The translations under genes and the position numbers were made by a program. DNA of 43,234 bases from Desulfobacteraceae bacterium (GTDB taxonomy: Bacteria > Desulfobacterota > Desulfobacteria > Desulfobacterales > Desulfosalsimonadaceae): contig JAABSL010000313.1 of assembly GCA_011390415.1 (NCBI GenBank), positions 1-43,234 on the forward strand, read 5' to 3'. Every line of letters starts with the position of its first letter. Positions within the stretch are counted from its first letter, which is position 1. Under the pieces are notes generated by a model, which searched no databases, was not told the origin of the DNA, and worked only from the letters and a program-made list of their open reading frames with translations. Positions 24,797 through 36,159 of this stretch are shown here, piece by piece.

Positions 24797-25588
24797 ATGG
24801 CTTACAATAACATAATTTTTGAAATCACCGATCAGATTGCCACCATCACCATTAACCGCCCCAAAGCATTAAATGCACTCAACACGGAAGTTTTAAATGA
24901 ATTGCTTCACGCGGTTGAGTCGGTGGCCGCTGATGAAGAGATCCGGGTTCTGATTCTCACGGGCAGCGGTGAGAAAGCGTTTGTTGCCGGAGCAGACATA
25001 GCGGAACTGGCCGAGCTGAACAGTCTTGGCGCCAAATTTTTTGCCGTTACCGGTCACAAGACCATGGATGCGATTGGGTCCCTCGCGATTCCCGTGATTG
25101 CGGCGGTTAACGGTTTTGCCCTGGGCGGCGGGCTGGAACTGGCGCTTTCGTGTGATTTTATGTATGCATCTGAAAATGCCAAATTCGGGCTTCCGGAAAT
25201 CACGCTGGGCATTATCCCCGGCTTCGGGGGCACCCAGCGCCTTTCGCGCATCATAGGGAAAAACCGGGCCAAAGAAATGATTTTTACCGGCAAAATGATT
25301 TCCGCACAAGAAGCCGCGCAAATGGGATTTGTTAATCAGGTGGTGCCGGCGGAAACACTCATGGAAACGGTCAGAAAAACCGCTTCGGCCATGGCATCCA
25401 AAGGAAAGTTTTCCTTAAATCAGGCCAAGCAGACAATCAATCAGGGGCTGGATGTGGATCTGCAGACCGGTTGCCGCATGGAAATTGATGCATTTGCTTT
25501 GTGCCTTTCCAGTGAAGACGCCGCCGAAGGCACCCGGGCGTTTCTGGAAAAACGCAAACCGGCTTTTAAAGGGAAATTAAAAGGCTAA
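24797..25588 (+). CDS. Enoyl-CoA hydratase/crotonase (3-hydroxybutyryl-CoA dehydratase-like)
   Basis: 263 aa; AGADIAELAEL, VNGFALGGGLELALSCDF, GLPEITLGIIPGFGGTQRL; SD-like GGAGGG upstream. Confidence 0.95.
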   Translation: MAYNNIIFEITDQIATITINRPKALNALNTEVLNELLHAVESVAADEEIRVLILTGSGEKAFVAGADIAELAELNSLGAKFFAVTGHKTMDAIGSLAIPVIAAVNGFALGGGLELALSCDFMYASENAKFGLPEITLGIIPGFGGTQRLSRIIGKNRAKEMIFTGKMISAQEAAQMGFVNQVVPAETLMETVRKTASAMASKGKFSLNQAKQTINQGLDVDLQTGCRMEIDAFALCLSSEDAAEGTRAFLEKRKPAFKGKLKG

Positions 25589-25597
25589 ACTTTTCAC

Positions 25598-25625
25598 TTG
25601 ACTTATTTCATTGTAACAATTTAAT
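25598..25625 (+). promoter_or_regulatory. Candidate sigma70-type promoter for the paaK operon leader
   Basis: TTGACT (25598-25603), 16-nt spacer, TTTAAT (25620-25625); an alternative TATAAT lies at 25638-25643. Confidence 0.35.
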
Positions 25626-25680
25626 TGTATTGTAAATTATAATATAATTAAAATTAATTCAAACCGGCTGAATCCGATTA

Positions 25681-25737
25681 ATGAAAAGTTTTGATCCCAA
25701 AAAACGCCTCATGGTAATTTTTTACTTTTTTAAATAG
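25681..25737 (+). CDS. Candidate leader peptide MKSFDPKKRLMVIFYFFK (18 aa)
   Basis: ATG AAA AGT TTT GAT CCC AAA AAA CGC CTC ATG GTA ATT TTT TAC TTT TTT AAA TAG; a Phe-Tyr-Phe-Phe run lies upstream of paired segments and an intrinsic terminator. No clear Shine-Dalgarno. Confidence 0.4.
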   Translation: MKSFDPKKRLMVIFYFFK

Positions 25738-25816
25738 TCTTCCCATGGGGCGTCAGTAAACCAGATACTGAACTTCACTTACCGCTATGGGGAGACGGAT
25801 AATGCACCCCTGTGGC
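25704..25816 (+). promoter_or_regulatory. Candidate attenuator/structured leader RNA (alternative hairpins)
   Basis: ACGCCTCATGG (25704-25714) pairs with CCATGGGGCGT (25743-25753); TCAGTA/TACTGA hairpin 25753-25771; GCTATGGGG (25784-25792) pairs with CCCCTGTGGC (25807-25816), which can alternatively pair with CCATGGGG (25743-25750). Confidence 0.45.
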
Positions 25817-25824
25817 AAATATTC

Positions 25825-25864
25825 AAAAAGGCTGTGGGGCTTATCACCTACAGCCTTTTTTTTT
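25825..25864 (+). terminator. Intrinsic terminator in the leader upstream of paaK
   Basis: AAAAAGGCTGTGGGGCTTATCACCTACAGCCTTTTTTTTT: GGCTGTGGG/CCTACAGCC stem with flanking A/T tracts, about 100 nt before the paaK ATG. Confidence 0.85.
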
Positions 25865-25961
25865 AAACCCGGGTTGAGCGTTTCAAATTTTGAAATAATT
25901 ATTTTTATATCTAATATTCAACATGTTGTTCAAAGGAAAAATGTGATGGAAGGAGGCAAGG

Positions 25962-27263
25962 ATGATTTTCAATATTGAATACGAGACAATGCCCAGAGAA
26001 GCGCTCGAATCCATTCAGCTCAAGCGGCTCCAGGCGGTTCTTTCCCATGTATACGCAACCGTCCCTTTTTATAAAAAAAAGCTCGATGACGCCGGCATTC
26101 TGCCCGGAGACATCAGAACACTGAAAGATCTGCAACGCATCCCCTTTACCACGAAACAGGATTTAAGGGACAATTATCCGTTTGGCATGTTTGCCGTGCC
26201 CATGGAAAACGTGGTTCGTATTCATGCTTCCTCCGGGACCACCGGCCAGCCAACGGTGGTCGGCTATACGGCACGGGATATTGATACCTGGGCCGAACTG
26301 ATGGCCCGGGCGCTTTCTTCCGCCGGCGCCACCCGCGGCGATATTATCCATAATGCATACGGATACGGCCTTTTTACCGGCGGCCTGGGTGTGCATTACG
26401 GCGCGGAAAAACTCGGGGCCTCCGTCATTCCGGTCTCCGGCGGCAATACCAAGCGCCAGGCCATTATCATGAGAGACTTCAAGCCCACCATTTTAACCGC
26501 CACCCCGTCTTACACCCTTCATCTGGCGGAAGCCGCGGAAGAAATGGGTATTTCATTCAAGGATCTGCATTTCAAGGCCGGTATTTTCGGCGCGGAACCC
26601 TGGTCCGAGGATATGCGGGAAGAAATCGAACAAAAACTGAATATGGATGCCTTAGACATCTACGGCCTCAGTGAAGTGATGGGCCCCGGCGTTTCCATTG
26701 AATGCCGGGAAGCCAAAAAAGGACTCCATATTTTCGAAGATCATTTCATTCCTGAAATCATTCATCCGGAAACCGGAGAAGTTCTGCCCTACGGGGAGGT
26801 CGGGGAACTGGTATTCACCACCATCACCAAGGAAGCCTTTCCCATCATTCGCTACCGGACAAGAGATATCACCAAATTAAATCCCGAGCCGTGTATTTGC
26901 GGCCGGACCCATGTCCGTATGGACAAGGTCAGCGGCCGTTCCGACGACATGCTGATCATCCGGGGGGTCAATGTCTTCCCGTCCCAGATTGAAAGTGTGC
27001 TCATGCAGATTGATGGGGTGGAACCCCATTACCAGCTTGTTGTCGACCGAATAGACAACCTTGACACATTAACCGTACGTGTGGAAGTCGGAGAACAGTT
27101 GTTTTCCGATGAAGTCAAAAAGTTGCAGGCCCTTGAGAGTAAAATATCAAAAGATATCAAGGAAACATTCGGGATTTCCGCAAAAGTTCAACTTGCCGAG
27201 CCGAAATCCATAGCTCGCAGTGAAGGCAAGGCCACCCGGGTAATTGATAATCGTAAGATTTAA
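25962..27263 (+). CDS. paaK: Phenylacetate-CoA ligase (PaaK-like)
   Basis: 433 aa; [19 protein letters not shown]-binding motif; [17 protein letters not shown]; strong AGGAGG SD at 25951-25956. Confidence 0.92.
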
Positions 27264-27290: not shown

Positions 27291-27722
27291 ATGCAAGCCG
27301 AACAGATATCCATATTTATTGAAAACAAAGCAGGCCGCTTATCCGATGTCACCGGCATACTGGCCCAGGCGAAGATTAATATCCGGGCCCTGGCCGTGGC
27401 CGATACGTCCGATTTCGGTGTATTGCGGTTGATTGTCAACGACAATGCAAAAGCGGAAGAAGCCCTTAAAAATTCAGGATTTACCGTCCGGAAAACACGG
27501 GTGGTTGCCGTAAAAGTAGACGACAACCCCGGCGGGCTCCACAATATTCTCAATATCCTTAAAAACGCCGGAATCAATGTGGAGTATATGTATGCATTCA
27601 TCCAGCAGAGCGGGGATAAGGCCATCATGATTTTCAGGTTTGACCAGACGGAAGAGGCGATAAACGTATTAATGGATAAGGGGGTCACCGTCATTGACGG
27701 GAAAACACTCAGCACCCTTTAA
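27291..27722 (+). CDS. Tandem ACT-domain protein
   Basis: 143 aa; ISIFIENKAGRLSDVTGILAQAKINIRAL and VKVDDNPGGLHNILNILKNAGINVEYMYAF: two ACT domains. Confidence 0.9.
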   Translation: MQAEQISIFIENKAGRLSDVTGILAQAKINIRALAVADTSDFGVLRLIVNDNAKAEEALKNSGFTVRKTRVVAVKVDDNPGGLHNILNILKNAGINVEYMYAFIQQSGDKAIMIFRFDQTEEAINVLMDKGVTVIDGKTLSTL

Positions 27723-27805: not shown

Positions 27806-27963
27806 GGGATGCGGGAAAAACCAATATACTTGGACTGCGCAGGATTTTGATTCGTATTCAAGGCGCATCAAAGGGAGCATATCAGGATATATGACCTTTG
27901 ATGCAACAAAGAATACGGGTCAACGGACAAGCAAGGCGGGTATATTCGTTTTTTCCGCATCCC
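27806..27963. repeat. Long imperfect inverted repeat (about 158 bp, hairpin/MITE-like)
   Basis: Ends GGGATGCGGGAAAAA ... TTTTTTCCGCATCCC; internal matching arms AATATAC/GTATATT, CGTATTC/GAATACG, GCATCAAAGG/CCTTTGATGC. Confidence 0.7.
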
Positions 27964-27987
27964 GAAACACAAAATGGGAGGAAAATT

Positions 27988-29157
27988 ATGTTTTTCGTCA
28001 ACAAGTACCGTTCAATGATGATCACTTTATCCATCGTGGCAATCGTATGCCTGATGATAACGTCGCCGGGCATCGCCGCATCTGACAAAAAACCATATAA
28101 AATCGGCGGCATTTTTGCCGTCACCGGGCCGGCCTCCTTTTTGGGTGACCCTGAAAAAAAATCCATGGAAATGGTCATTGAGCAGATCAATGCCGACGGC
28201 GGCATTGACGGGCACATGCTGGAAGCCGTGATTTACGACACGGAAGGCGATCCATCCAAGGCGGTCATGAGCGTCAACAAACTCATCAACAAAGACAACG
28301 TCATCGCCATCGTCGGGCCCAGCACCACCCCCGCCACCCTGGCCGTGATGCCCATTGTTCAGAGATCACAAATTCCGTTTATCAGCTGTGCGGCGGGAAA
28401 TAAAATCGTGGAACCCATCACCCCCTGGGTTTTTAAAACCGCCCAGAGCGATATTCAGGCGGTTGCCACCATTTATAAAACCTTACAATCAAAAAACATT
28501 AAAAAAATCAGTATTATCTCCGTTAACAATGCCTTTGGTGAAAGCGGCAAGGAACAGCTGCTGGCCCAGGCGCCGGATTTCGGCTTAACCATCGCCAAAT
28601 CCGAAACTTTCGGCGCCAAAGATACGGACATGACCGCCCAGCTAACCAAAATCCGTCAGGATAATCCCGAGGCAATTGTCTGCTGGGGCACCAACCCCGG
28701 GCCTGCCGTTGTGGCCAAAAATTTACAGCAACTGGGCCTGGACATTCCCCTTTACCAGAGCCATGGCGTGGCATCTCCCAAGTTCATTGAACTGGCCGGA
28801 GCTGCTGCCGAAGGCATTATGCTGCCCACCGGAAAAATCCTGGTCGCCGATCTGCTGCCGGACAGCGACCCTCAAAAGGCGGTCCTGCTGGACTATATCA
28901 ATGATTATGAAAAAAAATACGACGCCTCGGTATCCGGTTTTGGCGGATATGCATTTGACGGGGTCAAAATTCTGGCAGGCGCACTGAAAAACAGTGACGG
29001 CGATAAGGAAAAGATTCGAAAAGCAATTGAAAATACAAAAAACTATGTAGGCATCAGCGGCATTTTCAACTTCAGCCCGACCGATCATAACGGCCTGAGT
29101 CCGGAAGCATTTGTCATGGTCAGAATAGCCGACGGGACGTGGGAATTGATGGAGTAA
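27988..29157 (+). CDS. livK: Branched-chain amino acid-type ABC transporter substrate-binding protein (LivK-like)
   Basis: Signal MFFVNKYRSMMITLSIVAIVCLMITSPGIAA then YKIGGIFAVTGPASFLGDPEKKSMEMVIEQINADGGIDG; start chosen after GGGAGG SD (ORF track start 27898). Confidence 0.92.
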   Translation: MFFVNKYRSMMITLSIVAIVCLMITSPGIAASDKKPYKIGGIFAVTGPASFLGDPEKKSMEMVIEQINADGGIDGHMLEAVIYDTEGDPSKAVMSVNKLINKDNVIAIVGPSTTPATLAVMPIVQRSQIPFISCAAGNKIVEPITPWVFKTAQSDIQAVATIYKTLQSKNIKKISIISVNNAFGESGKEQLLAQAPDFGLTIAKSETFGAKDTDMTAQLTKIRQDNPEAIVCWGTNPGPAVVAKNLQQLGLDIPLYQSHGVASPKFIELAGAAAEGIMLPTGKILVADLLPDSDPQKAVLLDYINDYEKKYDASVSGFGGYAFDGVKILAGALKNSDGDKEKIRKAIENTKNYVGISGIFNFSPTDHNGLSPEAFVMVRIADGTWELME

Positions 29158-29208
29158 ATCAGACAAAATATTTTTGACATATGGTTATCCACTTAAACAT
29201 AAAATTGG

Positions 29209-29298
29209 CTGTCATTGCGAGGAGTGAGGAACGAACGACGAAGCAATCTCTCGGTTTTCCAGGGGATTGCTTCAGTCGTTCCTCCTTCGCAATGACAG
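29209..29298. repeat. Palindromic REP/MITE-like element (CTGTCATTGCGAGGAG... type)
   Basis: CTGTCATTGCGAGGAGTGAGGAACGA...GAAGCAATC / GATTGCTTC...TCGTTCCTCCTTCGCAATGACAG inverted repeat. Confidence 0.8.
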
Positions 29299-29368
29299 TA
29301 AAATATGAGATCACTACCTTTGACTAGCTTAACTTGAGCAAGGCGGATAACCAATTTTTGACATTAAA

Positions 29369-29396
29369 CCGGCCATGGAATCCATTCCATGGCCGG
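29369..29396 (+). promoter_or_regulatory. Perfect 12-bp hairpin between livK and livH
   Basis: CCGGCCATGGAA TCCA TTCCATGGCCGG; no following T tract, 24 nt before the likely livH ATG. Confidence 0.7.
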
Positions 29397-29419
29397 GACT
29401 ACAGGCAACGGATTCTATC

Positions 29420-30295
29420 ATGCAAGAGATGCTCCAGTATTTGTTTTCCGGAATTACCAACGGCGCCATTTATGCCGTCATTGCCATCGGTTTTTCCATG
29501 CTCTACAACTCAACCGATCTCATCAATTTTGCACACGGTGAATTTGTTATGCTGGGCGCGCTCTGCATGGTTACTTTTTTCGGCACCCTGCATTTGCCTA
29601 TCGTTTTGGCAATCCTCTTAGCCATCGCCAGCGTCGCGGTGGCCGGTCTGGTTTTTGAACGCCTGGCCATCCGATCGGTCAAAAATCCCGAACCGATTGT
29701 ATTAATTATCATTACCGTCGGCGCCTCCATTTTTTTACGGGGCATCGGAATGATTCTCTGGGGCAAAGACGCCCACACCATCGCTTCTTTTTCATCCCAC
29801 CCGCCATTGGATATCGCCGGCGCCAAATTGCTGTCCCAGAGCATCTGGATCATTGTCATTTTGTTATTGACCGCTGTGGGCCTCCAACTGTTTTACAAAA
29901 AGACATTAACCGGAAAAGCCATGGAAGCCAACGCCATCAGCAAACGGGCCGCCTGGATTGTCGGGATTCCGTCCAAACTGATGATCATGCTGGCATTCGG
30001 CTTAAGTACCGCCATGGGGGGATTGGCCGGCGTCATTATCGCCCCGATTACCATGAGCAGTTATGATATGGGAACCATGCTCGGGTTGAAAGGATTCTGT
30101 GCCGCCATGCTCGGCGGTCTCGGCAGCCTCTGGGGGGCGCTGATCGGCGGATTTCTTCTCGGTATACTGGAAGCCATGGGGGTTGGTTTTGTGTCCTCCG
30201 GATTAAAAGACGCCACCGCGTTTCTGCTTCTTTTATTCATACTGTATGTCAAACCCGGGGGCATTATCAGTTCCGCGAGTGTAAAACGGTTCTAA
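29420..30295 (+). CDS. livH: Branched-chain amino acid-type ABC transporter permease (LivH-like)
   Basis: MQEMLQYLFSGITNGAIYAVIAIGFSMLYNSTDLINFAHGEFVMLGAL; start chosen at internal Met of ORF 29375..30295. Confidence 0.93.
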   Translation: MQEMLQYLFSGITNGAIYAVIAIGFSMLYNSTDLINFAHGEFVMLGALCMVTFFGTLHLPIVLAILLAIASVAVAGLVFERLAIRSVKNPEPIVLIIITVGASIFLRGIGMILWGKDAHTIASFSSHPPLDIAGAKLLSQSIWIIVILLLTAVGLQLFYKKTLTGKAMEANAISKRAAWIVGIPSKLMIMLAFGLSTAMGGLAGVIIAPITMSSYDMGTMLGLKGFCAAMLGGLGSLWGALIGGFLLGILEAMGVGFVSSGLKDATAFLLLLFILYVKPGGIISSASVKRF

Positions 30296-30313
30296 GGAAG
30301 AATTAAACCTACG

Positions 30314-31273
30314 ATGAACAACCACCAGACCCGAAACAGAATCTGCTATACGGTTTTTTTACTGATAATCCTATTGGTGGGTTATTTTTTAGAAAACCTT
30401 TATTATATTCAAGTGCTTACCTTTATCGGCATCAACACGCTGCTGGCGCTTGCACTGAACATGCTGATGGGGTATGCCGGCCAGATTTCTCTCGGGCATG
30501 CGGCTTTTTACGGCATTGGCGCTTACGGTACGGCCATATTAACCGTCCATTACGGTTTTTCTCCCTGGCTGGCACTGCCGGCCGCCATTTTATCGGCCAT
30601 GATCGTGGCGTATATCGTCGGCATCCCCACTCTGAAGCTGTCCGGCTATTACCTGGGTATGGGAACGCTCGGTTTCGGGATGATCGTCAATATTCTTTTC
30701 CGGGAATGGAGCAGTGTCACCGGCGGGGCTTCCGGTTTTATCGGCATCCCCGCCCTGGAACTGGGTCCGATATCATTTGCTTCCGGCCGGAATTATTTTT
30801 TTCTGGTCTGGGGATTTGTGCTCATCGGCTTTATCGCGTGCCAGCGGATTATCGACTCCCGGATCGGCCGGGCGCTAAGAGCCATTCATGATGGGGAAAA
30901 TGCGGCCGCCGCCGTCGGAGTGGACACCCGTCAATTGAAACTGCAGATTTTTGTGCTCAGTGCGGCCATCAGTGCGCTGGCGGGATTTTTATATGCCCAC
31001 CTGGTCTATTTTATCAGCCCGGGCTCATTTAGTTTTATCGCCTCTATCCGGATGGTCACCATGGTGGTCATCGGAGGCATGGCCAGCATTTGGGGGGCGT
31101 TGCTCGGGGCATCTCTGCTGACGCTGCTGCCGGAATGGCTGCATGCGTTTTCCGAATTTGAAATGGTCGTCTATGGGCTGATTCTCATGGTTGTGATGAT
31201 TTTTTTACCCCGGGGTTTAACCCGGGGGCTTTTGGATATTTATGAACGGACCCGCAAAAAAAATGAGCACTGA
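30314..31273 (+). CDS. livM: Branched-chain amino acid-type ABC transporter permease (LivM-like)
   Basis: 319 aa; NTLLALALNMLMGYAGQISLGHAAFYGIGAYGTAIL; VVIGGMASIWGALLGA. Confidence 0.93.
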   Translation: MNNHQTRNRICYTVFLLIILLVGYFLENLYYIQVLTFIGINTLLALALNMLMGYAGQISLGHAAFYGIGAYGTAILTVHYGFSPWLALPAAILSAMIVAYIVGIPTLKLSGYYLGMGTLGFGMIVNILFREWSSVTGGASGFIGIPALELGPISFASGRNYFFLVWGFVLIGFIACQRIIDSRIGRALRAIHDGENAAAAVGVDTRQLKLQIFVLSAAISALAGFLYAHLVYFISPGSFSFIASIRMVTMVVIGGMASIWGALLGASLLTLLPEWLHAFSEFEMVVYGLILMVVMIFLPRGLTRGLLDIYERTRKKNEH

Positions 31274-32045
31274 ACTTCCCCTGCTTAAAATCGAAACCGT
31301 TGACAAGGCCTTTGGCGGCATCCAGGCCCTGAGTGATATCACGTTTGCGCTCAATCCCGGCTCCATCACCGGCCTGATCGGCCCCAACGGCGCCGGCAAG
31401 ACCACCTTGTTCAACCTGATCTCCGGTGTTTTTCCGGCGGATAAAGGAGAAATCATATTCAACGGTGCCGGCATCGAAAACATAAAATCGCATCAGCTGG
31501 TGGAACTCGGTATTGCCCGAACTTTTCAAAATGTGGAATTGTTTGAAAGCATGACCGTGCTGGAAAATATTCTGGTGGGTCAGCATACCCGGACCCGATG
31601 CGGCATATGGGGCAGTATTCTGCGGTTTCCCGGGGTCATTGCCGAAGAAAAAAAGGCCCGTGAATTTGCCCTGGAACTGCTGGATTTTGTCGGTCTGAAA
31701 GGGCACGCGGACAAAACGAGCGGGGACCTGCCCTTCGGCTGGCAGCGCCTGCTGGAAATTGCCCGGGCCCTGGCATCGCGCCCCAAACTGCTGCTGCTGG
31801 ATGAGCCGGCCGCCGGTTTAAACATCGTCGAAACCATGCAGCTGGGAGATCTGATCCGTAAAATCCGCAACCAGGGAATCACCGTCCTTCTGGTGGAACA
31901 CGACATGAGTCTGACAATGGAAATCTCCGACTGGATTGTGGTCCTGGATCAGGGAAAAAAGATTGCCCAGGGCAGTCCGCGAACCGTTCAGGCAGATGAA
32001 GCGGTAATTGCCGCTTACCTGGGGACAGCAGGGAAGAAGGAATAG
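31263..32045 (+). CDS. livG: ABC transporter ATP-binding protein (LivG-like)
   Basis: GLIGPNGAGKTTLFNLISG, LPFGWQRLLEIARALASRPKLLLLDEPAAGLN; start MSTELPLL (ORF track start 31242 also possible). Confidence 0.93.
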   Translation: MSTELPLLKIETVDKAFGGIQALSDITFALNPGSITGLIGPNGAGKTTLFNLISGVFPADKGEIIFNGAGIENIKSHQLVELGIARTFQNVELFESMTVLENILVGQHTRTRCGIWGSILRFPGVIAEEKKAREFALELLDFVGLKGHADKTSGDLPFGWQRLLEIARALASRPKLLLLDEPAAGLNIVETMQLGDLIRKIRNQGITVLLVEHDMSLTMEISDWIVVLDQGKKIAQGSPRTVQADEAVIAAYLGTAGKKE

Positions 32046-32048
32046 AAA

Positions 32049-32792
32049 ATGCTGCGTATCAAAAACCTGAAATGTTTTTACGGACGGATAATGGCCGTCA
32101 AGGGGGTCAGTCTTTCAGTCAAAAAAAGCCAGATCATCACATTAATCGGCGCCAACGGTTCCGGTAAAAGCACGCTGCTCGAATCCATCTGCGGGCTGCT
32201 GCCGGACTGGAAAGGCGAAATCACGTTTGAAGGGGTTTCCCTCAAAGGCTTTGACCCGCCGGCGGTTGTCAAGCAGGGCATCAGCCTGGTGCCGGAAGGG
32301 CGTCTGGTCTTTCCGCCCATCAGCGTGCTGGACAATCTTAAACTCGGTGCCTACACCATGTATCGGAAACGTCAGCATGCCGCAGTGAATCAGACCCTGG
32401 AAAAAATTCTGGATCTGTTCCCGATTCTAAAACAACGGGCAAAGCAGCCGGCCGGCACCCTTTCCGGCGGAGAGCAGCAGATGCTTGCCATTGGCCGCGG
32501 GCTGATGTCTCACCCCAAACTACTCCTTCTGGATGAGCCTTCTATGGGACTGGCACCGCTGATTGTGGAAAAAATTTTTCAAATCCTGGAAACATTGAGA
32601 AACGACGGAATTACCATTCTTCTTGTGGAGCAAAATGCCCAGGCCGCTCTCCAGATAGCCGATTTCGGCTATGTTTTTGAAACCGGAAACGTGGTGCTCC
32701 AGGGACCGGCATCGGAGCTGCTGGAAGACCAGGAAGTCAAAAGAGCCTACTTAGGCAAAGATTATGGAGAATTCTATGACGACAAATACTGA
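32049..32792 (+). CDS. livF: ABC transporter ATP-binding protein (LivF-like)
   Basis: 247 aa; LIGANGSGKSTLLESICGL, LSGGEQQMLAIGRGLMSHPKLLLLDEPSMGLAP. Confidence 0.95.
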   Translation: MLRIKNLKCFYGRIMAVKGVSLSVKKSQIITLIGANGSGKSTLLESICGLLPDWKGEITFEGVSLKGFDPPAVVKQGISLVPEGRLVFPPISVLDNLKLGAYTMYRKRQHAAVNQTLEKILDLFPILKQRAKQPAGTLSGGEQQMLAIGRGLMSHPKLLLLDEPSMGLAPLIVEKIFQILETLRNDGITILLVEQNAQAALQIADFGYVFETGNVVLQGPASELLEDQEVKRAYLGKDYGEFYDDKY

Positions 32793-34029
32793 TTTCACCC
32801 GCACGAGCAGTGAAGAAAAAAATCAGCTTCAGCTGGAGCGTCTGCAAAGTACGTTAAACCGGGCGTATCGCAATGTCCCCTTTCATAAGAAACGCTTCAA
32901 GGAAATGGGCATCGACCTGTCCCGGATTGAATCACTTTCAGATATTGCCAAGCTCCCGTTTATGAAGCGTCAGGACATCAGTGAGAACTATCCGTATAAT
33001 CTCTTTGCCGTTCCGCTCCGCGATATTATCAGAATTCATACCGCTCCCGGCACCACCCGGAACCCGACGGTTTCCGGATACACACCCCAGGATCTGTCCA
33101 ACTGGCAGGCAATGCTGGCAAGAGCCCTTGAGGCGTGCAACGTCACTGCCCATGATATTCTTCAAATCACCTTAAATCCGGGACTGGCGAATTGGGGCAG
33201 AGATTATAAGCATGGCGCGGAATCATTAGAAGCCAGTGTAATTCCGCACACCCCCATGTCCATTGAAAAAAGACTGATGGTGCTCAGGGACTACAAAACG
33301 TCCGTGCTCGTCAGCACCCCGTCCGCAGCACTTCAACTGGCAGACTATGTTCGCAAAAATGAAATAAACACCAATACATTTGAATTAAAGACACTGATTC
33401 TTGCCGGGGAAGCCATTGATGAAAATGACAGACAGTTGCTGGAGAAAGAACTGCATGTCAGGGTGTGGACCCATTACGGGCTCAGTGAAGTGCCGGGTCC
33501 GGCCATTGCTTTTGAATGCGACGCCCATGAAGGCCTGCACATCAACGAAGATCATTTTCTGCCGGAAATCATAGACCCGGCAACCGGCAGAGTTCTGCCG
33601 AATGGACAAACCGGCGAACTTGTCTTAACGACCCTGACCACCCGGGCATTTCCGCTGATTCGGTTCAGAACCGGCGATCAGGCACGGATTATTGAAAACA
33701 GCTGTCCCTGCGGCCGGACATTTGGGCGCATTGACTGGCGGGGAGACAGAACAGATGACTTGATCAATATTGACGGGGTGAAGGTTCACAGAAAACAGAT
33801 TCAGTTTTCAATTCAAACGCTGCTGAATCTCCCATCCGATGCTTCAAAATTTTACATCAAAAAACGGGATGGGAAAAAATATATTGAAGTCTGGATACCG
33901 GTCAATGACGCCATCTTTTCCGATGAAATAAAAGATCTGGAAGCCTTAATTCTCCGGGCGGAAAATAATCTTTTGGAAAATATCGGTATCCCGGTGGCCA
34001 TCCGCCTGAAAGAAAAAAATACGATTTAA
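32764..34029 (+). CDS. Second PaaK-like adenylate-forming protein with divergent ATP-binding motif
   Basis: 421 aa, colinear with the first PaaK (NVPFHKKRFKEMGIDLSRIESLSDIAKLPF...; HYGLSEVPGPAIAFECDAHEGLHINEDHFLPEIIDPATGRVLPNGQTGELVLTTLTTRAFPLIRFRTGD) but with HTAPGTTRNPTVSGYT at the P-loop. Overlaps the livF end. Confidence 0.85.
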   Translation: MENSMTTNTDFTRTSSEEKNQLQLERLQSTLNRAYRNVPFHKKRFKEMGIDLSRIESLSDIAKLPFMKRQDISENYPYNLFAVPLRDIIRIHTAPGTTRNPTVSGYTPQDLSNWQAMLARALEACNVTAHDILQITLNPGLANWGRDYKHGAESLEASVIPHTPMSIEKRLMVLRDYKTSVLVSTPSAALQLADYVRKNEINTNTFELKTLILAGEAIDENDRQLLEKELHVRVWTHYGLSEVPGPAIAFECDAHEGLHINEDHFLPEIIDPATGRVLPNGQTGELVLTTLTTRAFPLIRFRTGDQARIIENSCPCGRTFGRIDWRGDRTDDLINIDGVKVHRKQIQFSIQTLLNLPSDASKFYIKKRDGKKYIEVWIPVNDAIFSDEIKDLEALILRAENNLLENIGIPVAIRLKEKNTI

Positions 34030-34039
34030 CCGCAGATGG

Positions 34040-34555
34040 CTATTTCCCGACCGTTTCAAATGACTCAATTATAATATCGAGTTCTTCTTCCGGGGGCATT
34101 TCCGGTTTCTGATTCGGCGACTGGGTGTAGAAATAGGCAAACTCTTTAAAACTGAATGGTTTTTCTTCACCTGCCGCGATATAGCCGATAATGTCTTTTT
34201 GATCAAAACTGGAATCTTCGGCCAACCCGGACCCAATGGTCTTGACAACATCTTTCTGCTCCGAGCTCACAATATCCTCATTCTGTGAATAAGAAAACCA
34301 CCTTTGAGGTGTCCATACCTCGATGCAGGATTTACACACCCCGGTGACGACGGCGCGCTTGACATCCACTTCACCAGTGTTTTTAATCATACCTGTTGCA
34401 TCAATAGACCACCCGTTATCGCTGAACTGGGTCAAGTGATATGTTTTTTGTGTCACCTCAAGCTTGCCCTCTTTTTTCTTTTCACAGGAAACACACCAGA
34501 TAAGACATATCAGAAGGCTGCAAGCCAGTATCGTGATTCGGACATTATTTTTCAT
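34040..34555 (-). CDS. Small lipoprotein, paralog 4 of tandem family
   Basis: 171 aa; LIWCVSCEKKKEGKLEV; MIKNTGEVDVKRAVVTGVCKSC; IIESFETVGK. Confidence 0.8.
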   Translation of the reverse strand: MKNNVRITILACSLLICLIWCVSCEKKKEGKLEVTQKTYHLTQFSDNGWSIDATGMIKNTGEVDVKRAVVTGVCKSCIEVWTPQRWFSYSQNEDIVSSEQKDVVKTIGSGLAEDSSFDQKDIIGYIAAGEEKPFSFKEFAYFYTQSPNQKPEMPPEEELDIIIESFETVGK

Positions 34556-34577
34556 CTATTTAATTCCCATCTTAATT

Positions 34578-35021
34578 TTATCCATCCACCGTCTCAAAAG
34601 ATTCCACTACGATTTCAAGTTCTTCCGGCAATTCGGGCGCTTCCTGTCCGGCCTGCAACAGCAGGTCTGCGATTTCTTCAAAGCTGAATGATTCTTCATT
34701 TCCAACAGATATGTAACTGATGACATCCTTTTGATGGGGCATTTTTTCAATTTCCGGTGTAATGACCCACTGGCCGACAATCCATAAATCACTGCATGAA
34801 CGGCAATAACCGGTGACCACTACCTTTTTGACATCCACTTCACCGACATTTCGGACCTTGCCCCTGCCGTCAATGGTATATGAATTTTCTTTATCCTTTC
34901 GTAAAACAAATTCCGGTTCAGTGATGACCACCTTGCCCTGTTTTTTCTTTTCACAGGAAACCATGCAAATGCTCAGAACCAATGCCAAAATGAATATCGT
35001 ATACCGCTGGAATGCCTGCAT
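34578..35021 (-). CDS. Small lipoprotein, paralog 3 of tandem family
   Basis: 147 aa; SICMVSCEKKKQGKVVI; GKVRNVGEVDVKKVVVTGYCRSC; VVESFETVDG. Confidence 0.82.
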   Translation of the reverse strand: MQAFQRYTIFILALVLSICMVSCEKKKQGKVVITEPEFVLRKDKENSYTIDGRGKVRNVGEVDVKKVVVTGYCRSCSDLWIVGQWVITPEIEKMPHQKDVISYISVGNEESFSFEEIADLLLQAGQEAPELPEELEIVVESFETVDG

Positions 35022-35092
35022 TGCCCGCCCCCTTTTTATTATCGTGTAAAAACATATTATTAAAAAAGCCGGGACAATAGCGTGAAAAAAAA

Positions 35093-35533
35093 CTATTCGT
35101 CCACGGTTTCAAAGGATTCAATAACCACTTCGAGTTTTTCCGGCAGGTCCTGAGGGCCCTGACCGCTTTGTGTAAAATAAAAAGCGACTTCCCTGAAACT
35201 GAATGCTTCTTCGTCTCCGGCCGGCAGATAACTGATCACATCTTTTTGTTCCGTCGTCTTTGGCACATTATTGATATACCATACTCCGGCGGTTAAAACT
35301 TCTCCGCAGGAGCGGCAGTAACCGGTAACAACCACCTTTTTGACGTCTACTTCACCGACGTTTCGGATCTTGCCCCGCGCATCAATCACCCAATTATATT
35401 CAGCGTCCTGGCGGATACTGAATTCCTGTTCGGAGACAATTACCTTTCCCTCTTTTTTTTCGGCACATGCGGTAAAACAAAGGCATGCAGCCAACAAAAA
35501 ACAAAATGCCGCGAAACGATTAAAAAAAAACAT
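35093..35533 (-). CDS. Small lipoprotein, paralog 2 of tandem family
   Basis: 146 aa; LCFTACAEKKEGKVIV; GKIRNVGEVDVKKVVVTGYCRSC; VIESFETVDE. Confidence 0.82.
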   Translation of the reverse strand: MFFFNRFAAFCFLLAACLCFTACAEKKEGKVIVSEQEFSIRQDAEYNWVIDARGKIRNVGEVDVKKVVVTGYCRSCGEVLTAGVWYINNVPKTTEQKDVISYLPAGDEEAFSFREVAFYFTQSGQGPQDLPEKLEVVIESFETVDE

Positions 35534-35700
35534 ACACCTGCTCCTCCTGAAAAAATCCCTGTTAATACGTCGTCTACAGATAAGGGCCTCAATATAACAG
35601 AAAAAAATTAAAAAGCCAATTTTGAATTTTATCCCATTGATCAGGAGTGATGTCTTTTTTTTGTTAAAATTATTTTAAGATAATAATATTTTATAAAAAA

Positions 35701-36159
35701 TTATTCGACCGTTTCAAATGATGCCACAACCACTTCCATTTTTTCCGGTATGGTTTCCGGTTTTTCCGGAACCGTATTGTAAATAAAAGCCACTCCCCTG
35801 AAACTGAAGTCCTCTTCCGCGTCAACTGAAAGGTAGCTGATGGTGTCTTTCTGGTCCGGTGTCTTTTCATACTCCGACACAAACCAGTTTCCGGGATTAA
35901 TCAATTCACCACAGGAACGGCAGTATCCGGTAACTACTAAATTCTTAACATCTACCTCCCCTACATTTTTTACCTTGCCCCTGGCGTCGATAACATATGC
36001 ATTTTCAGAATCCTGACGGACAATGAATTCACTTTCCGTAACAATGACCCGGCCTTCTTTTTTTTCACTACATGAAAGCACACAGAAACAGGCGACCATC
36101 AAAAAACATACTATGATTACAAACTGTTGACGAGATACCATCGCTTCCTCCCTATTCAT
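35701..36159 (-). CDS. Small lipoprotein, paralog 1 of tandem family
   Basis: 152 aa; FCVLSCSEKKEGRVIV; GKVKNVGEVDVKNLVVTGYCRSC; VVASFETVE. Confidence 0.82.
   Translation of the reverse strand: MNREEAMVSRQQFVIIVCFLMVACFCVLSCSEKKEGRVIVTESEFIVRQDSENAYVIDARGKVKNVGEVDVKNLVVTGYCRSCGELINPGNWFVSEYEKTPDQKDTISYLSVDAEEDFSFRGVAFIYNTVPEKPETIPEKMEVVVASFETVE

Follow-up and report, generated by a model that had tools for sequence, protein, structure and literature searches.

The window analysed here, a stretch of 43,234 nucleotides from a Desulfobacteraceae bacterium, contains a structured leader upstream of a paaK-ACT-liv operon, and the question it raises is which signal this leader reads and in which direction it switches the genes behind it. 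The genes proposed to be regulated, all on the forward strand, encode a phenylacetate-CoA ligase-like PaaK (25962-27263; TIGR02155, 632.5 bits, just under the cut-off of 646.3; AMP-binding_C_2), an ACT-domain pair protein (ACT_8, 27291-27722; PF19571, 3.6e-31) and, as genes 3 to 7, a liv-type ABC transporter (27898-32792; binding protein, LivH, LivM, LivG and LivF, with LivM and LivF named only from translation and position). A second PaaK-like ligase closes the cluster (32764-34029, forward strand; NF041878, 316.6 bits, below the cut-off) and is assumed to share the transcript. An enoyl-CoA hydratase-like (crt) gene (24797-25588) lies directly upstream of the leader, and just behind the operon four consecutive paralogous small lipoprotein-like genes (SCEKKKQGKVVITEPEF...VTGYCRSC) stand in tandem on the reverse strand (34040-36159). 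From the comparison of related leaders and from modelled folds we consider it probable (about 0.86) that positions 25598-25864 form a ribosome-mediated transcription attenuator of the paaK-ACT-liv operon, with charged tRNA-Phe as the sensed signal.

The leader has a putative promoter (25598-25625, forward strand) upstream of its ORF, read from the sequence and absent from the original prediction, with a -35 element TTGACT (25598-25603), a 16-nt spacer and a -10 element TTTAAT (25620-25625). Where the window has TTGACT, TTGACA is found in 53 of the 54 homologous paaK leaders whose sequence extends far enough upstream, with 2.4 expected by shuffling; this count alone was used, the combined -35/-10 pattern having matched only 15 of the 54. 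The predicted 18-codon mini-ORF with its Phe-Tyr-Phe-Phe run was found on the forward strand at 25681-25737 (ATG to TAG, MKSFDPKKRLMVIFYFFK), with the sensing codons TTT TAC TTT TTT at 25720-25731, the last Phe codon at 25729-25731 and a stop codon that abuts arm a directly. No Shine-Dalgarno sequence precedes this ORF in the window (CGGCTGAATCCGATTAATG), as the original prediction had cautioned; purine-rich sites are visible by eye at this place in many relatives (AAGGAG in L069, GGAGGAG in L073).

The arms, competing segments and terminator could likewise all be located where they had been proposed, on the forward strand. Segment 1 (ACGCCTCATGG, 25704-25714) pairs with CCATGGGGCGT (25743-25753) in a putative protector hairpin, 1:2, that holds the Phe codons in its loop and comes from folding and sequence of the window. 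Arm a (GTCTTCCCATGG, 25737-25748) is the 5' arm of the antiterminator, and arm b (CTATGGGGAGAC, 25785-25796) may pair with a in the antiterminator or, from 25784, where the segment GCTATGGGG starts, with c. Arm c (CCCCTGTGGC, 25807-25816), whose U-tract is present in most relatives and lost in the window, is a partner of b or d, and arm d (AAAAAGGCTGTGGGG, 25825-25839, with the segment GCTGTGGGG starting at 25831) is a partner of c or e. Arm e and its T9 tract (25847-25864) complete the intrinsic terminator d:e, which ends at 25864 and is absent from the list of a simple terminator scan. The folding energy of RNA 25650-25870 is -62.4 kcal/mol, where dinucleotide shuffles give -45.4 +/- 4.1 (z -4.2, 0/200). 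The leader combines a short ORF rich in cognate codons, mutually exclusive covarying hairpins and an intrinsic terminator before the first structural gene.

A direct DNA search for the leader gave matches in only 4 of 40 genomes, and homologues were obtained through the PaaK protein instead, gathered from 36 genomes of the family and named genome contigs (51 loci, mostly Desulfobacteraceae and Desulfobacterales MAGs). From 66 distinct regions upstream of paaK homologues we aligned 31 leaders, and all 31 contain a Phe-rich short ORF, an a:b antiterminator stem, a competing b:c hairpin and a d:e terminator, with core arms a GTCTTCCCATGG, b CCATGGGAAGAC, c CCCATGG, d GGCTGTGGG and e CCCGCAGCC followed by a U-tract. 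Examples of the Phe-rich leader peptides are MRSRFFYFGFFSFLEGFFFRKSIHGLAR, MRQASEHAGFFGNFFFFKKSSHGSAQ and MVYRFFFIFFFKADFRFTRSAHGRII, together with MQSPSFRFGFTEFFRFRKSTRGVVR from a GC-rich genome and MGGARFYFYGFFGGFF from L065, where the ORF is read in a shifted frame. In 31/31 aligned leaders the last Phe codon lies 8 nt 5' of arm a, without deviation, and a Phe codon occupies this register in 56 of 57 non-redundant paaK/liv leaders. Among the 1406 residues of the paaK leader peptides we counted 375 Phe, compared with 134 expected by shuffling, and 72 Tyr, compared with 55 expected; for these counts the ORF was chosen by Shine-Dalgarno match or fixed frame, an earlier listing by the most aromatic frame being biased. 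Because both TTT and TTC serve the conserved Phe positions (19 TTT and 26 TTC at position -2), the enrichment is not mere T-richness. The check proposed with the original prediction, a comparison of homologous leaders for a Phe/Tyr ORF, covarying stems and Rfam matches, therefore favours an attenuator: the conserved ORF and stems uphold leader-peptide attenuation, and the Phe/Tyr signal is to be amended, being Phe more than Tyr. Two upstream regions deserve separate mention: the one of Desulfocicer vacuolatum (L075) differs, contains several near-identical short repeats with CTGCCCGTGGCAG and is not the attenuator described here, and in L220 a Phe-rich leader is separated from paaK by a gene for a predicted exported 326-aa protein.

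In the 31-leader alignment the a:b arms are 97.0% paired, with five pairs changed on both sides (UA, AU, GC and UG at one position) and a covariation of 0.243 against 0.128 when shuffled (0/500 shuffles). The b:c arms are 93.2% paired, with a covariation score above those of 500 shuffles, and d:e reaches 90.6%, with 10 of 12 pairs changed on both sides and a covariation of 0.380 against 0.217 (0/500); pairing in these three stems falls to about 25-58% when the arms are slid. Pairing of the c:d arms reaches 92.3%, with G-U pairs frequent and covariation weaker. Their duplexes were further compared by energy, with kinship left uncorrected: c and d of the same leader average -16.9 kcal/mol, compared with -7.3 when the partner is letter-shuffled (own partner better in 99/99) and -15.4 when it is swapped within a class (0/2000 shuffles). 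Arm d has changed along with c in the leaders of the DAHP synthase-prephenate dehydratase fusion (DAHPS-PDT), whose arm core is CCCCGGG and whose c pairs at -12.6 kcal/mol with d of other classes against -20.1 with its own; in one group of paaK leaders c has become CTC and d GAG. A likeness of d to b that merely reflects hairpin duplication would predict similar energies for b:e and c:d, and this explanation was set aside since the control duplex b:e yields only -10.2 kcal/mol. Comparison of the leaders shows a:b, b:c and d:e as mutually exclusive pairing steps along one RNA, with c complementary to d. The U-tract of d:e is present in 105/105 leaders, the window included, and that of b:c in 95/105. 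The first tract is lost in 10 of 55 paaK leaders, among them the window, with the d:e U-tract and c:d retained, and the c:d relay would then be the only route from peptide to terminator in those leaders.

A covariance model (R1) was built from the aligned leaders, the window among them, and searched in a wider set of genomes. Of 292 Desulfobacterales genomes, 244 gave matches, as did 89 of 297 genomes of the phylum at E <= 1e-7. Its E-values are unreliable alone, as some matches near 1e-5 fall on both strands; mainly matches above about 45 bits were used, and leader and gene were checked individually in about 125 matches, other orders included. Two matches, L202 and L222, did not fit on this check. 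The downstream genes, assigned with NCBIfam and Pfam for a single representative of each kind and with BLAST for the rest, encode PaaK, the DAHPS-PDT fusion, other DAHP synthases, ADH synthase (ADHS) and TrpE, and in L095, L119 and L178 the leader stands before a liv operon alone. The codons follow the gene: WWW codons before trpE (30 Trp against 3.3 expected), Phe before DAHPS-PDT (54 against 14.6), Phe, Tyr and Trp before ADHS (102 Tyr against 25 and 79 Phe against 45) and Phe before paaK-ACT-liv or liv alone. This correspondence is the strongest argument for the Phe codons of the window as the sensor. In the window genome itself, trpE is preceded by a Trp leader (L124). In other orders, an aminotransferase-like gene follows Phe-rich leaders (L227, L231), a LivK homologue follows a Tyr-rich one (L228) and a DAHP synthase a Trp leader (L232). 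By these comparisons the leader of the window represents one class of a larger, putative family of aromatic-amino-acid attenuators with tandem terminators, which the original prediction did not foresee.

The original prediction had found no unambiguous ON/OFF folding logic; one can be derived from the five arms, using c:d energies and folds computed with imposed, analyst-chosen fixed ribosome edges. When Phe-tRNA is short, the ribosome would stall on TTT TAC TTT TTT and leave arm a free to take b, so that c stays available for d once d is made; with c:d formed, the d:e terminator would come too late and the operon would be transcribed. When Phe-tRNA is ample, a ribosome at the stop codon would cover a, b:c would form, and d, left free for e, would end transcription at 25864. 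In most relatives b:c with its own U-tract would place two terminators in series under one sensor; in the window, where the first U-tract is lost, control would pass through the c:d relay. With the RNA exposed from arm a onward and e still to be transcribed, a:b and c:d form together in 46 of 57 paaK/liv leaders, the window included, and in 22 of 24 ADHS leaders, the stalled fold favouring b:c in 10-11 of the 57. With arm a covered, b:c forms in 57/57 paaK/liv leaders and b:c with d:e in 56/57. For the window, the stalled fold contains 13 a:b and 8 c:d pairs, the unstalled fold 9 b:c and 14 d:e pairs. Because c:d is weaker than d:e, the relay must act kinetically.

The copy in the window appears to be a genuine but weak member of the family, without a Shine-Dalgarno sequence, with TTGACT, a stop codon adjoining arm a and the first U-tract lost, and it may be partly eroded and respond less than typical members. 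These same features would be expected of a decaying member, poorly responsive to Phe and acting as a partial constitutive terminator, and the surroundings lend this some weight: a sister genome carries a degenerate copy (L012, with only one Phe codon; L021 is another in near relatives), and most of the genus of the window has no leader. We nevertheless regard outright decay as unlikely, given that the sensing codons and the a:b, b:c, c:d and d:e pairings are intact and predicted to switch, that the leader scores 97 bits against the covariance model (which it helped to build) and that the copy in the sister genome G005 is intact, with FFFF. The gap between crt and paaK measures 9-185 nt without a leader and 300-557 nt with one, a pattern that suggests repeated loss or gain.

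Under attenuation, genes are turned on as their amino acid runs short, and the operon is accordingly expected, from the modelled folds, to be ON under Phe scarcity, which argues for Phe acquisition over breakdown. PaaK and the neighbouring enoyl-CoA hydratase are usually annotated as catabolic, and a Phe/phenylacetate catabolic operon would call for a leader of opposite sense, induced by Phe. The order of the arms, however, leads to termination once translation gets to the stop codon, the same architecture precedes biosynthesis genes for Phe, Trp and the common aromatic pathway, and leader-bearing copies lie apart from crt by the longer gap given above; an induced catabolic operon thus seems distinctly improbable. 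A function in the metabolism of the sensed amino acid is clear downstream of the trpE, DAHPS-PDT and ADHS leaders and can only be inferred for paaK-ACT-liv. The liv operons under Phe/Tyr leaders without paaK support a role in uptake. A route from phenylacetate through phenylacetyl-CoA to Phe is possible, as in the assimilation of aryl acids by anaerobes. The window genome encodes the alpha subunit of indolepyruvate ferredoxin oxidoreductase, with iorAB unlinked to the operon and no leader seen before it, and it also encodes a prephenate dehydratase, which gives it the standard route to Phe. Synthesis of Phe from phenylacetate has been noted in a rumen study (PMC7356843). We infer that the operon takes up Phe or aryl acids and activates phenylacetate as a precursor of Phe, rather than serving Phe breakdown.

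A ligand-binding riboswitch or standalone sRNA with an incidental ORF, which the original prediction had kept as an alternative, would account for the strong conserved RNA structure and would equally yield a short terminated transcript, but it is very improbable, as the codons vary with the gene that follows, relatives keep the leader frame and the register of Phe, and Rfam returned at gathering score only a tRNA elsewhere in the window and, in a permissive search of the leader, a best match of E 0.048, which is not credible.

The charged tRNA-Phe attenuator proposed here shares its principle with trpL, and trpE in these bacteria has a Trp-rich leader of the window-type architecture. The trpL leader of E. 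coli follows a four-arm scheme, whereas five or six arms and two serial terminators are predicted here. The pheL and pheM leaders of gammaproteobacteria, attenuators of pheA (PMC5343134) and pheST, likewise join a Phe-rich peptide, competing hairpins and an intrinsic terminator; they differ from the leader of the window in phylum, sequence, arm topology and target, and Rfam gave no match to them in the window. A matching arrangement is found in the his operon leader of E. coli and Salmonella, a six-arm relay in which AB, CD and the terminator EF give way to BC and DE on stalling (PMC10989985). The arm order is the same, and an alternation of this type, b:c with d:e against a:b with c:d, was recovered here by prediction and complementarity only. 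The his leader differs in its His codons and in that only its last hairpin is described with uridines, where the present leaders have Phe, Trp or Phe-Tyr codons and usually a U-tract on the middle hairpin too. His_leader (RF00514) has no match in the window, and L121 reaches 36.2 bits against a gathering score of 49. Searches of open-access literature yielded no leader attenuators for Deltaproteobacteria or Desulfovibrio.

A broader proposal, to which we give roughly even odds, is that such attenuators form a family spread across Desulfobacterota and serving Phe, Trp, Tyr and the common aromatic pathway. A single stalled ribosome would govern two serial terminators through five alternating arms, and paaK-ACT-liv would belong to a Phe-starvation regulon, the operon importing Phe or aryl acids and activating phenylacetate as a precursor of Phe via indolepyruvate ferredoxin oxidoreductase. 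Two serial terminators under one ribosome would, if true, be a variant of the his relay. The family would offer a testable rule for the control of aromatic amino acids in this phylum, whose members include sulfate reducers and syntrophs, with the sensing codons as a functional label that could tell Phe, Trp and mixed regulation apart. The common branched-chain or catabolic annotation of liv-type transporters and PaaK-ACT proteins would then give way to a role in the supply of aromatic amino acids.
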